Part shown: positions 49,854 through 53,683 of the stretch, in pieces
Layout: each line of letters starts with the position of its first letter
How positions within the stretch are numbered: position 1 is the first letter of the stretch
Assembly: GCA_016784175.1 (NCBI GenBank)
Contig: JADHVC010000004.1
Location: forward strand, 1-53,851
Length of the DNA: 53,851 bases
From: Patescibacteria group bacterium
Lineage (GTDB): Bacteria > Patescibacteriota > Patescibacteriia > Patescibacteriales > BS150m-G62
Direction: 5' to 3'
The notes under the pieces: model-generated
What the model was told of the DNA's origin: nothing
The model's database searches: none
What the model saw: the letters and a program-made list of their open reading frames with translations, nothing else
Program-made: the position numbers and the translations under genes

Positions 49854-49929
49854 TTGACTTTATTTTAGATATATGCTACACTTATAACAGTTATATAGTT
49901 CATTTTACCATTCGCAATTCGCGGGTAAA
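49854..49929 (+). promoter_or_regulatory. Promoter and leader hairpin of the DGR target gene
   Basis: TTGACT (49854-49859), a 17-bp spacer and TACACT (49877-49882). The ~70-nt leader has a TTTACC/GGTAAA hairpin (49904-49929). The ATG at 49958 is preceded by AGAGGAGG, the strongest ribosome-binding site in the window. The rest of 49664-49853 is AT-rich with nothing recognised. Confidence 0.6.
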
Positions 49930-49957
49930 TATCAACTAACAAGAGGAGGAAGCGACG

Positions 49958-50881
49958 ATGACGACAGAGTCGATCACGTCCATCACGGATGGTCAGAGAA
50001 AGCAGTATTTTCGGTTTGGAGAGGATGCATTAGAGCGTGCTCTCACGGAGGCTGGCCTCGACAAAGAGGGCATCCAAAAACTTATTGGAAACGGAGGACA
50101 ATTTCAAGCAGACATGGTGGCCAGTATTAAAAGGCTTTCCGTCAGCAATCAGTTCGCCGATGAGGAAAAAGAGTCTACCCATGGGTATCTTTCGGGTTAT
50201 AAGCCCGATCCAAGTCTTGACGAAAATTTGGCTGACTTGGAAACTGAATTGGCAAGACTTCGTCAAATTCCAGAACTCGCTAGTGCTGATTACGATCGTG
50301 ATTATGCGGAGCGTATTCGTACTGGTGAAATCACGCTTCCAGTCGGAAATGAGCGTTGGACGTTGATCCCAAAATGGGAACTTCTCAGTAAAACCTATGG
50401 AGTTGCCGTCGAACGGCCACTTGCGCTTATCAGCCAAGACCGAGACGGAAATTTCCACAATTACCGTGAAGGTAAGCTTGGCGCAAGCTATCTTCGTCAA
50501 GGTGCACGTAGTGTCGAGATGTGGAAGCAATTGGCAAAAGACCAAAAAGGCGACATCTTGATCGTTCCAATTCAGGCTGGTATCGTCCATCGTGGACGAT
50601 CAGTTAGGCGGGCACGTGAAGTATTTCGTGCTCATGAGTTCGGTCTTGGTGCATTTGCCGTCGGAATGTTCATTTTGACACATCCAGAGCGCCTGAAGCA
50701 TCTTGATGATCTATGGATCGATTGCGCAGGAGATGAGTATTCACCGCATGCCGATGGCGATTTCCCGCGCGCCCCGCTCTTCCACTTCGATGACGGTCAG
50801 GTCAGGTTCGGCGCCTACTGGGTCAGCGATGCGCATTCGTACTACGGGTCGGCCTCTGGTTCGGTGGTCGTGTCGCAGTAA
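49958..50881 (+). CDS. DGR target protein with C-terminal variable ligand-binding domain
   Basis: 307 residues, no signal peptide or membrane helix. Residues 1-115 are helical and charged. Residues ~130-205 include GNERWTLIPKWELLSKTYGVAV. The C-terminal domain runs from GDILIVPIQAGIVHRGRS through FGLGAFAVGMFILTHPERL and LWIDCAGDEYSP into the variable region. Residues 264-307 are encoded by the VR; 13 of them are diversified (264, 271, 274, 276, 278, 283, 285, 286, 287, 291, 293, 295, 307). The fold is probably C-type-lectin-like, as in other DGR targets, but this is inferred. Codon use is far richer in C and G than in neighbouring genes. With its strong promoter and SD it is likely well expressed. 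Cytosolic or export-independent location is implied by the lack of a signal. Confidence 0.9.
   Translation: MTTESITSITDGQRKQYFRFGEDALERALTEAGLDKEGIQKLIGNGGQFQADMVASIKRLSVSNQFADEEKESTHGYLSGYKPDPSLDENLADLETELARLRQIPELASADYDRDYAERIRTGEITLPVGNERWTLIPKWELLSKTYGVAVERPLALISQDRDGNFHNYREGKLGASYLRQGARSVEMWKQLAKDQKGDILIVPIQAGIVHRGRSVRRAREVFRAHEFGLGAFAVGMFILTHPERLKHLDDLWIDCAGDEYSPHADGDFPRAPLFHFDDGQVRFGAYWVSDAHSYYGSASGSVVVSQ
50743..50878 (+). repeat. DGR variable repeat (VR)
   Basis: 136 bp ending at the last sense codon of the target gene. It aligns without gaps to the TR 568 bp downstream. It differs at 50747, 50768, 50769, 50777, 50783, 50789, 50805, 50810, 50811, 50813, 50816, 50828, 50834, 50840 and 50876. 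Every difference replaces an A of the TR (7 to G, 6 to C, 2 to T). The last ~35 bp before the final changed base are invariant and GC-rich, as expected for an initiation-of-homing site. Confidence 0.97.
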
Positions 50882-50944
50882 GATGCTTGAACTTTGAACA
50901 CTTGAATCTTGTGTCGAAAACTTGATACTTGATTCTTGAAACTT

Positions 50945-50959
50945 CCTGCCGAAGGCAGG
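50945..50959 (+). other. Small hairpin downstream of the VR
   Basis: CCTGCC-GAA-GGCAGG, a perfect 6-bp stem 66 bp after the VR. In the Bordetella phage DGR a hairpin just after the VR promotes homing; a similar role here is possible. Short CCTGCC/GGCAGG palindromes are also common scattered repeats in CPR genomes. Confidence 0.45.
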
Positions 50960-50970
50960 TCGCAACAATT

Positions 50971-51004
50971 GGGGTTATCCACAGGCTGGATAACCCCTTT
51001 TTTC
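50971..51004 (+). terminator. Terminator of the target gene
   Basis: GGGGTTATCC-ACAGGCT-GGATAACCCC followed by T-rich sequence (TTTTTT): a perfect 10-bp stem. Confidence 0.93.
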
Positions 51005-51462
51005 TTTGCTGATAATAATGTACAATAATATTGAGCTAGGCTAGTGCATGGTAGTTTACGAATTACTGTCGCCGAACTCTCTCTACGAACGAGAAAACAG
51101 CCAGAGTCCTTAAAGATTACGATTTTTGAGGAGAGTGCTGGTTTAAGGAGATACTGCTTGTTTTAGTCTGGAGCAGATGTTTCGGATTTATGAATATTGT
51201 TTATTGTATGGAGCTACTGCCAGATAAAATACAGAGAGAAGAGCATATAATCCACTAACTGGTGGACGTAAACCTCAACTTTCAGTGGCCATGGATAGAT
51301 TAAAACAACTACCGAATGCCGATGGCGATTTCCCGAACGCCCCGATCTTCAACTTCAATGACGGTCAGGTCAAGTTCAACACCAACTGGGTCAGCAATGC
51401 GAATTCGAACTACGGGTCGGCCTCTGGTTCGGTGGTCGTGTCGAAGTCTCTTCTTCAAAGGT
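51005..51462 (+). ncRNA. DGR template RNA (TR plus flanks)
   Basis: The non-coding interval between two terminators. It holds ~300 nt of unique sequence, the TR and ~16 nt of 3' flank. In studied DGRs the RNA carrying the TR with its flanks is the template and primer platform for the RT. Local pairing is visible upstream of the TR: ACTCTC with GAGAGT, CAGC with GCTG, and CCACT-AACT-GGTGG (51252-51265). TACAAT at 51021-51026 is a possible -10 box without a good -35. Transcript ends are inferred, not seen. Confidence 0.7.
51311..51446 (+). repeat. DGR template repeat (TR)
   Basis: 136 bp, same orientation as the VR. Read in the VR frame it encodes Asn at almost every diversified codon (AAT or AAC, ten of thirteen), the codons that adenine mutagenesis can convert to the widest set of residues without stops. 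Of its 31 adenines 15 differ in the VR; none of its 105 other bases does. Its GC content is far above its surroundings, as in the target gene. Confidence 0.97.
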
Positions 51463-51491
51463 AAAAAAGCATCTAAATAAGATGCTTTTTT
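51463..51491. terminator. Bidirectional terminator between TR and avd
   Basis: AAAAAAGCATCT-AAATA-AGATGCTTTTTT: a perfect 12-bp stem ending in U-tracts on both strands, 2 bp from the avd stop codon. It ends the TR transcript and the avd message. Confidence 0.92.
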
Positions 51492-51492
51492 G

Positions 51493-51834
51493 CTATAATG
51501 ATTTTATCCATCCACCTAGCATTTTGCCAATCTCATTAACAATTTTTTCAATTCGCAAATATTTTTTATCATCTATTGCCTTGTTTTCCCTTAGTAATCT
51601 AATAAATATTCTTGCAATATTTAATTTTAAACTAACATTTTTTAGTATTGGACTTTTTTCGTTTCTTGGTAGTTGAGCGGCTAATAAAATGCCCTCAATT
51701 ATATCTAAAATAATCCTTTCACAACGCTCAAAAGTCGTAAATCTTTCATGCTTAGGTATTACTTTTCTAAAATCATGAAGAGTTTTATACAGCTCATAGG
51801 ATTTTTTGCAAATTGGTATTTCTAATGTATCCAT
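51493..51834 (-). CDS. Avd-like accessory variability determinant (four-helix bundle)
   Basis: 113 residues from the ATG at 51834 (MDTLEIPICKKSYELYKTLH); the frame is open further upstream but that part overlaps the RT gene. It is all-helical and basic, with the pattern of the four-helix-bundle/Avd family: YELYKTLHDFRKVIPKHERFTTFERCERIILDIIEGILLA (shown only as landmark segments here: YELYKTLHDF, IPKHERFT, IILDIIEGILLA). Avd forms a pentamer that binds the RT and template RNA and is needed for cDNA synthesis. It is encoded on the opposite strand to the RT, with a 9-bp intergenic space. Confidence 0.85.
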   Translation of the reverse strand: MDTLEIPICKKSYELYKTLHDFRKVIPKHERFTTFERCERIILDIIEGILLAAQLPRNEKSPILKNVSLKLNIARIFIRLLRENKAIDDKKYLRIEKIVNEIGKMLGGWIKSL

Positions 51835-51843
51835 TATAATTAT

Positions 51844-52890
51844 ATGAAGACTTGTAAGAATATATTTAATCAAATAATATCTCCTGAAAATTTATTAATT
51901 TCGTGGGATGAATTTAAAAAGGGAAAGGGGAGTAAGGAGGATGTAATGAAATTTGAGTGGAATTTGGAGGATAATATTTTTAAATTACACCATGAGCTAG
52001 TCAGTAAAAATTATAAACATTGTGAATATACTTCTTTCCATATTCATGATCCAAAAAGGAGGCATATTCACAAAGCGAGTGTCAGGGATCGTGTCTTACA
52101 TCACGCTATATTTAGAGTACTAAATCCGATTTTTGAGCCGTCATTTATTCATACTTCATTTTCTTGCCGTGTTGATAAGGGGACTCACAAGGGCATAACC
52201 GCTTTATCACAAATGTTGAATAAAGTCAGTCAAAATAATACACAAAAATGCTTCGCCTTAAAATGTGATGTAAAAAAATTCTTTGATACAGTTCATCATG
52301 GGATATTAAGAAATATTATTTCAAAACGAATTAAGGACAATAATGCTCTTTGGCTTTTAGAGGAAATAATCGAGAGCTATATTACTAAATATTCAAATTT
52401 GTTTGATAGGAGGGGTATTCCGATTGGAAATCTTACCTCACAATTGTTTGCTAATATATACATGAATGAATTTGATCAATTTATTAAGAGCGATTTAAGA
52501 ATAAAGCACTATGTTAGATATACTGATGACTTTGTAATAGTGTCTCAGGATGAAAAATATTTGATTAATTTAGCTAAAGTACTAAACTTTATTTTGCAAA
52601 CTAGGCTAGACTTAAAATTGCATCCAAGTAAGGTGTGGGTTAGAAAATACAGTCAAGGTATTGATTTTCTAGGTTCTGTTATTGTGCCTCATTACAAACT
52701 ACCAAGAGCCAAGACAAAGCAACGTATTTTTAGAAAAACCAAGCAGAAATTAAAGGAGTTTAATGGAGATAAGATTTCCGAAAATACATTAAATCAGACC
52801 TTGCAATCATATTTGGGTGTTCTTACTCACACAAGCTCTTTTAAGGTAAGTGAACAATTGAAAAATCAATACTTTTTCGGCATTAATTAG
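51844..52890 (+). CDS. DGR reverse transcriptase
   Basis: 348 residues. RT fingers and palm are clear: RDRVLHHAIFRVLNPIFEPSF, the first catalytic Asp at ~142 in LKCDVKKFFDTV, and RRGIPIGNLTSQLFANIYMNEFD with the DGR-type motif (I/L/V)GxxxSQ at 194-200. YTDD at 226-229 supplies the other two catalytic Asp, and the thumb includes VWVRKYSQGIDFLGSVI. It lacks the maturase and endonuclease domains of group II intron RTs. The IGNLTSQ motif and the adjacent TR/VR pair and avd assign it to a diversity-generating retroelement. It copies TR RNA with misincorporation opposite adenine. A TATAAT lies 3 bp before the ATG, in the 9-bp gap shared with avd. Confidence 0.95.
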   Translation: MKTCKNIFNQIISPENLLISWDEFKKGKGSKEDVMKFEWNLEDNIFKLHHELVSKNYKHCEYTSFHIHDPKRRHIHKASVRDRVLHHAIFRVLNPIFEPSFIHTSFSCRVDKGTHKGITALSQMLNKVSQNNTQKCFALKCDVKKFFDTVHHGILRNIISKRIKDNNALWLLEEIIESYITKYSNLFDRRGIPIGNLTSQLFANIYMNEFDQFIKSDLRIKHYVRYTDDFVIVSQDEKYLINLAKVLNFILQTRLDLKLHPSKVWVRKYSQGIDFLGSVIVPHYKLPRAKTKQRIFRKTKQKLKEFNGDKISENTLNQTLQSYLGVLTHTSSFKVSEQLKNQYFFGIN

Positions 52891-53114
52891 TCGTTGCGCT
52901 TCTTTTTCTGAATGATATAATCTTCATCTATATTAGACAGATCTTTAGCCAATTTACTCATATGCCGACAATCTCTTTTTAGTGCTTTTAAATTTTCTTC
53001 TTTGTTATAAATAATATCCTTAATACTCCTGCATAATGAATTAAGTGCATTGGATAAAGTAATAAAATACTCTTTTTTAGAAATGAATCCTCGAATTTTA
53101 GTTTTTCTTGACAT
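52887..53114 (-). CDS. 75-residue basic helical protein, unknown, convergent with the RT
   Basis: MSRKTKIRGFISKKEYFITLSNALN start (landmarks only), a helical middle (IKDIIYNKEENLKALKRDC) and a Lys/Arg/Asp-rich tail. It overlaps the RT stop by 4 bp on the opposite strand. A hairpin ATTTGC-TATTA-GCAAAT lies within ~20 bp upstream of its ATG. It has no motif I recognise. By position it may be a second DGR accessory protein, but equally an unrelated small gene. Confidence 0.5.
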   Translation of the reverse strand: MSRKTKIRGFISKKEYFITLSNALNSLCRSIKDIIYNKEENLKALKRDCRHMSKLAKDLSNIDEDYIIQKKKRND

Positions 53115-53148: not shown

Positions 53149-53269
53149 AAAAAAGGCCTTCCCAGTACTAGCGACAACTCCTTTCGAAATTGCCCTGCCC
53201 TCCTTTCGGAAAACAGACCCCTAAACAAAGAGTGCTAGCCTGTAGAAGGCCATCTCTATTGTTTAGGGG
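53149..53269 (-). ncRNA. Structured RNA candidate with pseudoknot and terminator
   Basis: Minus strand, ~121 nt. The 5' end CCCCTAAACAATAGAG pairs with CTCTTTGTTTAGGGG. The loop of that hairpin (GGCCTTC and CAGGCTAGC) pairs with the 3' end (GCTAGTACTG with one bulge, and GAAGGCC), which would make a pseudoknot or a switch. Two GAAA-capped hairpins lie between (TCC-GAAA-GGA and GGCAATTTC-GAAA-GGAGTTGTC). It ends GGCC plus six U. TATAAA sits 7 nt before the proposed 5' end. I do not recognise the family. Confidence 0.55.
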
Positions 53270-53425
53270 AATTTTATATTTCACCATGCCTAATTGTCAT
53301 TTCAATTAAGTTTAGGTATTGTTGAGAAGTTTATTTTATATAATTTATTTGATATTAATTTAATTAATTATATTATTAATATTACATTTTTTAATTAAAA
53401 AAACAAGATGATGATATTGAATAAT

Positions 53426-53499: not shown

Positions 53500-53683
53500 T
53501 ATACAAACAATCGAATATGGATTTATAAAACCTAACCCAGAAATGGTATGGTTTTAAAATCTCAATCCCAAAAGACATAAGAACGGCTTTCTAGCTGGTA
53601 TCCTGTCTTTTGGGTCAATTCTGAGAAATCGGGATTGGGATTCATCGCTTCGGCGGTGGGTTCGCCACTGGGAAGCCTTTTTT
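53500..53683 (+). ncRNA. Structured RNA candidate with strong terminator
   Basis: Three stem systems in order. AAAACC/GGTTTT encloses a CCA-GAAA-TGG hairpin (53527-53555). AATCTCAATCCC (53558-53569) pairs at 12 of 12 positions with GGGATTGGGATT (53631-53642) and encloses AAAAGACA/TGTCTTTT. Last comes a terminator GCTTC...GTGG-GTTCG-CCAC...GAAGC with six U (53647-53683). The CCC of the second stem could pair instead with GGG at 53612-53614, a possible switch. No coding frame or known family is recognised. Confidence 0.6.

Follow-up and report, generated by a model that had tools for sequence, protein, structure and literature searches.

The element described here is a diversity-generating retroelement (DGR) in a stretch of DNA of 53,851 nucleotides, hereafter the window, which corresponds to contig JADHVC010000004.1 of assembly GCA_016784175.1 from a member of the Patescibacteria, or candidate phyla radiation (CPR), in the class that includes Uhrbacteria. 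The window was one contig of a 1.2-Mb genome, and that genome contained one target gene of the family considered below, one reverse transcriptase (RT) of this type and one copy of the RNA domain. The target gene was located at 49958-50881 on the forward strand and encoded a protein of 307 amino acids without a signal or a known domain, as evaluated from its open reading frame, family alignments (A1-A4) and an AlphaFold model. The variable repeat (VR; 50743-50879, +) occupied the 3′ end of the target and was followed by the template repeat (TR; 51311-51447, +), the avd gene of 113 amino acids (51493-51834), which lay on the reverse strand, antisense to the TR and RT, and the RT gene of 348 amino acids (51844-52890, +). 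A structured RNA domain was identified 5′ of the TR. The presence of a complete DGR in a CPR genome had been proposed in a preliminary description made from the sequence alone and was confirmed, given that target, VR, TR, avd and RT were all present, the best solved relative of the RT was that of BPP-1 and the Avd was recognised via Pfam and PHROGs. These five parts had been correctly listed, and the RNA domain upstream of the TR (from approximately 51142) had been missed.

The VR and TR were aligned without gaps over 137 columns at an offset of 568 and were 89% identical with 15 mismatches. All 15 mismatches were located at adenines of the TR, where 15 of the 31 adenines were changed (seven to G, six to C and two to T), whereas the non-adenine positions were identical in the VR throughout (106/106). 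The hypergeometric probability of this adenine-only pattern was P = 7.7e-12. Hence, the adenine-specific mutagenesis claimed earlier was borne out; the same ungapped alignment had been found but ended one base short, at 136 columns and 105 non-adenine bases. The VR formed the last 45 codons of the target, and 13 of these codons were changed. As read in the TR, nine of the 13 were Asn codons, and the others were Ile, Lys, Thr and Lys; the earlier count of diversified codons was therefore correct, and its figure of ten Asn codons was one too high.

The best match of the RT in the PDB was 8ub7 (3.1e-40), which corresponded to the BPP-1 DGR RT, and the next was a group II intron RT (6.3e-23). The RT also matched PF00078 in Pfam and phrog_1423 in PHROGs (1.6e-110), so that its assignment in the preliminary description was upheld by the profile search and by the best solved relative. 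Its sequence contained YTDD and the IPIGNLTSQLFAN motif, the latter of the DGR type. The Avd matched PF22296 in Pfam (2.5e-15; 57.3 bits, cut-off 40) and phrog_3206, annotated as 'Avd protein of DGR', in PHROGs (3e-20), and its match to NF033474 in NCBIfam (2e-22) scored 79.4 bits, just under the cut-off of 80. The element is a DGR because the VR/TR differences were restricted to adenines, the RT was BPP-1-like and an Avd was encoded, and as such it belongs, without being exceptional, to a group already known from Patescibacteria. The RT also matched models of group II introns and defence-associated reverse transcriptases (DRTs), all below cut-offs, which would be expected if a non-DGR system (retron, group II intron or DRT) lay beside a chance duplication. 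This explanation can practically be dismissed in view of the adenine specificity, the Avd, the BPP-1 RT as best match and the recurrence of this gene set across dozens of loci.

The arrangement of target, VR, TR, inverted avd and RT had been considered possibly new. Scans for adenine-specific repeats, RT and Avd revealed the same layout, including the inverted avd, in dozens of other Patescibacteria DGRs, which contradicts that suggestion. Variations were a divergent target (L118, L138, L159, L194, L198 and L199) and a pair of targets sharing a single TR (L039 and L045). Close relatives of the RT were present in 45 of 111 genomes of the order to which the window belongs, and no near RT was found in a genome from another phylum. 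Roux et al. 2021 (PMC8144416) report a DGR clade that is confined to Patescibacteria and has targets lacking recognisable domains. DGR clade 2 of that paper resembles the element of the window in its Patescibacteria/CPR host, its cellular encoding and a target without a recognised domain or membrane segment. This likeness is one of description and not of tree placement, and the 5′ RNA domain and the avd orientation go unmentioned in the available text. The nanoarchaeal and ANMV-1 DGRs (PMC4372165) likewise belong to small uncultured prokaryotes and have orphan target proteins. They differ in being archaeal, and the accessible portion of that report describes a hairpin near the VR and does not mention a domain 5′ of the TR.

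A conserved stretch was found directly 5′ of each TR when the flanks of 28 TRs were compared. The consensus of 29 aligned loci comprised three helices, namely the outer helix P1, which ended right before the TR, and the helices P2 and P3, with the core AAATAAAATTCAG...GGTG. The domain of the window (51149-51319, +) was delimited by its match to a covariance model and by covariation counts, and its 3′ end overlapped the TR by 9 nt. The 5′ strand of P1 (51160-51169, +) paired with the 3′ strand directly before the TR (51297-51306, +), according to both covariation and the single-sequence fold. For this domain of approximately 150 nt, 91.2% of the cells in the 29 loci were paired, compared with 67.3% in shuffled and 39-51% in slid alignments. 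Moreover, the covariation score was 0.824, compared with 0.35 for shuffled and at most 0.24 for slid alignments, and 20 of the 21 pairs had changes on both sides. On account of the paired cells, the covariation score and the two-sided changes relative to these controls, the predicted RNA fold 5′ of the TR is strongly supported as a conserved structure.

The distribution of the domain was explored with the covariance model (R1), which was built from the aligned loci and searched against 94 loci (943 kb). The window matched R1 at 114.9 bits, as a part of the training set. At E ≤ 0.02, R1 had a match adjoining the TR on its 5′ side in 39 of 48 DGR loci, among them DGRs from the order of the window whose targets are unrelated. 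Among approximately 40 loci with a target but no DGR, matches occurred only at L055 (remnant-like), at L141 (contig end) and, weakly, at L042; BPP-1 was not matched by R1. A blind test was also performed on a sample of 116 genomes, from which 12 previously unexamined R1 matches were fetched. Eleven of the 12 adjoined an adenine-specific VR/TR pair, and the twelfth was the L055 remnant. An RT was also present at nine of these 11 loci and an Avd at eight. Two loci, L255 (4529-5139, −) and L259 (958-1556, +), contained TR/VR and the RNA domain with no RT or Avd found alongside; the genome of both (G133) had an RT elsewhere (C4, approximately 85 kb), and the two are possible DGRs served in trans. 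A further conserved hairpin, CCAGAGTC...GATTACGGTTT...GAGAGTG, was observed 5′ of the RNA domain (approximately 51097-51141) and upstream of the helix P0 (see below) in relatives, and some DGRs had two or three copies of it. The TR RNA may extend approximately 250-300 nt further in the 5′ direction.

No Rfam family matched the RNA domain at threshold, and the closest was RT-16 RNA (RF03019), an RT-associated motif. RF03019 was aligned over its full length at the same place (51161-51317), with AUAAAAUACAG...GGUG as a common core. The identification of the domain as RT-16 was rejected, as the score was 18.7 bits compared with a gathering score of 50; a search of 287 genomes of the phylum with RF03019 yielded no match anywhere, and the controls were equally silent. 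No description of the 5′ RNA domain was found in a literature search that had the RT-16 motif paper and the first large CPR DGR survey outside its range. The domain and the helix that closes the template are apparently undescribed.

This closing helix, designated P0, was a long-range helix between the 5′ flank of the RNA domain and the sequence at the 3′ end of the TR. Its 5′ strand, TTTAAGGAGATACT (51142-51155, +), paired with 51445-51458 (+), and both strands were evaluated via register tests, permutation tests and the single-sequence fold. With anchors chosen independently of the pairing, 79% of the positions were paired in register, whereas 36-58% were paired when the strands were slid, and none of 5000 partner permutations gave a value as high. 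The pairing was kept with other sequences in divergent DGRs, for example by AAGAAGATACT and AGTATCTTCTT in L085. The combined P for the order-level loci was 9e-9; the best helix in L084 and L110 was located elsewhere. When the window RNA was folded as a single sequence, P0, P1, P2, P3 and a terminator-like hairpin were obtained, with a modest z-score of −2.1.

The interval between the TR and the avd stop was 45 nt and consisted mostly of the P0 strand and a strong hairpin (51463-51491, +) flanked by an A-run and a T-run. The hairpin lay between the TR and the convergent avd, was identified from the sequence, the fold and its same place in relatives, and is probably the 3′ end (terminator) of both the TR RNA and avd. 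It was not listed in the terminator scan. A strong hairpin 3′ of the TR and before avd occurred in nearly every locus among the relatives.

The BPP-1 DGR (mtd, VR, avd, TR, brt) shares with the window an RT (31.5% identical), an Avd, a VR at the 3′ end of the target, a similar TR length and A-to-N mutagenesis. The genes of BPP-1 are all on one strand with approximately 145 nt between TR and brt, whereas avd is inverted in the window and follows the TR after the 45-nt interval. The TR RNA of BPP-1 has avd on its 5′ side and, on its 3′ side, a folded spacer that recruits RT-Avd and provides the adenosine used for priming (PMC12875486); conserved DGR structure is also placed in the trailing RNA in a review (PMC8867640). 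The conserved structure is therefore 3′ of the TR in BPP-1 and 5′ of the TR in the window. A structured 3′ spacer of the BPP-1 type was not found in the 45 nt of the window, where the conserved structure is 5′ and a read-through RNA is still conceivable. Tentatively, the order of the template RNA may be reversed in Patescibacterial DGRs, such that a domain recruiting RT-Avd would lie 5′ of the TR and P0 would bring the TR 3′ end to it, and the start or primer of the complementary DNA (cDNA) would then differ from the 3′ spacer adenosine of BPP-1.

It is less probable, in our judgement, that the 5′ structure is a leader (e.g., regulatory or stabilising) of an ordinary DGR, with no role in reverse transcription and with priming 3′ of the TR through read-through into antisense avd, as in BPP-1. 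The RT lies downstream on the TR strand, which would permit read-through across antisense avd; BPP-1 itself is primed from the 3′ spacer (PMC12875486), and the unlisted hairpin at 51463-51491 is only a putative terminator. The recurrence of that hairpin in nearly all relatives' loci argues against the leader, however, as does the fact that the sole strongly covarying domain found was 5′ of the TR, the antisense-avd region having been outside the covariation test. Furthermore, in divergent DGRs P0 connects the domain precisely with the TR 3′ end and keeps its pairing although the sequence has changed; such a link would be needless for a mere leader.

The target protein had no match in Pfam, NCBIfam, PADLOC, PHROGs or PDB. 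Its family had been described as possibly new, which does not hold in that form: at least 112 relatives were located in one collection of named genomes, mostly in Patescibacteria and some in metagenome-assembled genomes (MAGs) labelled Acidobacteriaceae. When 380 genomes of the phylum were sampled, 33 contained relatives, and the family was spread across the phylum both with and without a DGR. An open frame of 23,325 amino acids at one relative (G378) was a run of N and not a giant gene. The DGR-less homologs of Patescibacteria were hypervariable at the same columns as the DGR-linked homologs. Diversification of these homologs in trans, by DGRs located elsewhere in their genome, was rejected for nine genomes, in which the VR/TR scores were 12-16, compared with 122 for the positive control and 10 for the null. 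Because no TR of the other DGRs matched in these nine genomes, the DGR-less targets look like frozen former targets. DGR-less homologs in the Acidobacteriaceae-labelled MAGs were recorded at L168, L169, L176, L179, L182, L186, L188-L190 and L196. Four aligned Acidobacteriaceae homologs were nearly invariant at the C-terminus, where the Patescibacteria homologs were hypervariable, and they may be a fixed version that is not diversified, or their contigs may be mis-binned. The DGR target at L103 (4852-5652) had only its first 61 residues in common with the family and a different C-terminus, and it is a case of N-terminal module shuffling.

The AlphaFold models of the target were confident (pLDDT 94.4 and 94.7). 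No match was obtained with Foldseek at E ≤ 0.001; the weak top matches were often of the lectin fold (EMS16, PvdO, Bd2740 and the DGR target TvpA, 2y3c), with a best TMt of approximately 0.5. The predicted C-terminus is plausibly C-type-lectin-like. The target body (49958-50742) was GC-rich at third codon positions (GC3), with 0.42 compared with 0.22 in EF-Tu of the same genome. This excess over the RT and neighbouring genes was family-wide and reached a GC3 of 0.87 in a locus with a GC of 0.40. Codon adaptation was rejected as an explanation, as EF-Tu of the same genomes had no comparable rise, and so was a general effect on DGR targets, as raised GC was seen in only about half of the unrelated targets in the order.

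The activity of the family was evident from near-identical contigs. L198 and L199, which contain the same target family, differed at 22 sites over 9,504 bp, and all 22 were inside 169 nt at the 3′ end of the target; the remaining 9.3 kb were identical. Within the mapped VR, 12 of 13 differences were at TR adenines. L128 and L131 had 16 VR differences, all 16 at TR adenines, and their flanks differed at approximately 10% of sites. The target family is hypermutated in nature. Strain variants were also sought in viral contigs by scanning for the exact pattern of the TR, and none was found. It would be surprising if the DGR of the window were decayed and inactive, with the VR and TR as a record of past activity only. 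No second VR variant is known, the genome has a single target, and orphan targets or remnants occur in some relatives (L055 and, weakly, L042), all of which would fit decay. Against it, the RT (348 amino acids), the Avd and the target are all intact open frames, VR and TR still agree at all 106 non-adenine positions, and the helices of the RNA domain are preserved in the window.

In the tree, the RT of the window was placed among RTs from other lineages that are associated with this target family, away from the RTs of its own order, and a tree in which it was constrained to its own order was rejected (p-AU 0.0018). As the RT groups by target family in other lineages and not by order, the cassette, including the target, was probably moved horizontally.

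Other features were observed around the cassette. A terminator-like hairpin of the target gene was listed at 50971-50997 (+) in the terminator scan. The open reading frame at 52887-53114 (−), where the interval of the preliminary description ended, had no relative in the other fetched loci and hence probably lies outside the element. LOOT RNA (RF03000) was found at 53173-53318 (−) and 53529-53651 (+), in opposite orientations and 0.3-0.8 kb after the RT, with one copy over the threshold and the other just under it (45.0 compared with 46.4 bits). Only five copies were found in the whole genome. Of 36 DGR loci inspected, nine had LOOT, usually no more than 1.5 kb from the cassette, and it was absent from 11 target loci lacking a DGR. 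LOOT may represent a boundary or a MITE-like element (miniature inverted-repeat transposable element).

Taken together, we regard it as very likely that the window contains a DGR of the Patescibacteria type, with a 5′ domain and P0, that the VR is replaced under the guidance of RNA, and that the element arrived horizontally. The TR region would be transcribed as one RNA ending near 51490. RT and Avd would bind the 5′ domain, which P0 would hold beside the TR 3′ end, and the domain would thereby do the work of the BPP-1 3′ spacer. The RT would make errors at A while copying the TR, and the resulting cDNA would replace the VR, giving new versions of the C-terminal face of the target, probably a C-type-lectin-like binding surface. 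Several points weigh against this account. The transcription as one RNA and the binding of RT-Avd are deduced from sequence features, and the activity of the window's own element from the VR/TR comparison and its relatives. The permutation test of P0 leaves the relatedness of the sequences in, and 9 of the 48 DGR loci had no R1 match at E ≤ 0.02, so that some DGRs have a diverged domain or lack it. Foldseek gave no significant match for the lectin fold of the target. Finally, a hairpin or cruciform is needed within approximately 35 bp downstream of the VR in BPP-1 (PMC3240598), whereas no hairpin directly followed the VR in the window and the nearest was a 6-bp stem with a GAA loop approximately 65 nt downstream.

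The DGR of the window is ordinary, and the predicted 5′ RNA domain and P0 make it a well-supported variant. R1 is a practical DGR detector, and its blind finds include two TR/VR loci without an RT found nearby, which could be missed by RT-based searches. The L198/L199 pair captures hypermutation of the target family in nature at near-zero background. The DGR mechanism is known largely from one phage element, with the working structure behind the template. If it is true that a large branch of cellular DGRs has the structure before the template, clamped by a long-range helix, then how the RT starts on the template would become a directly testable question.

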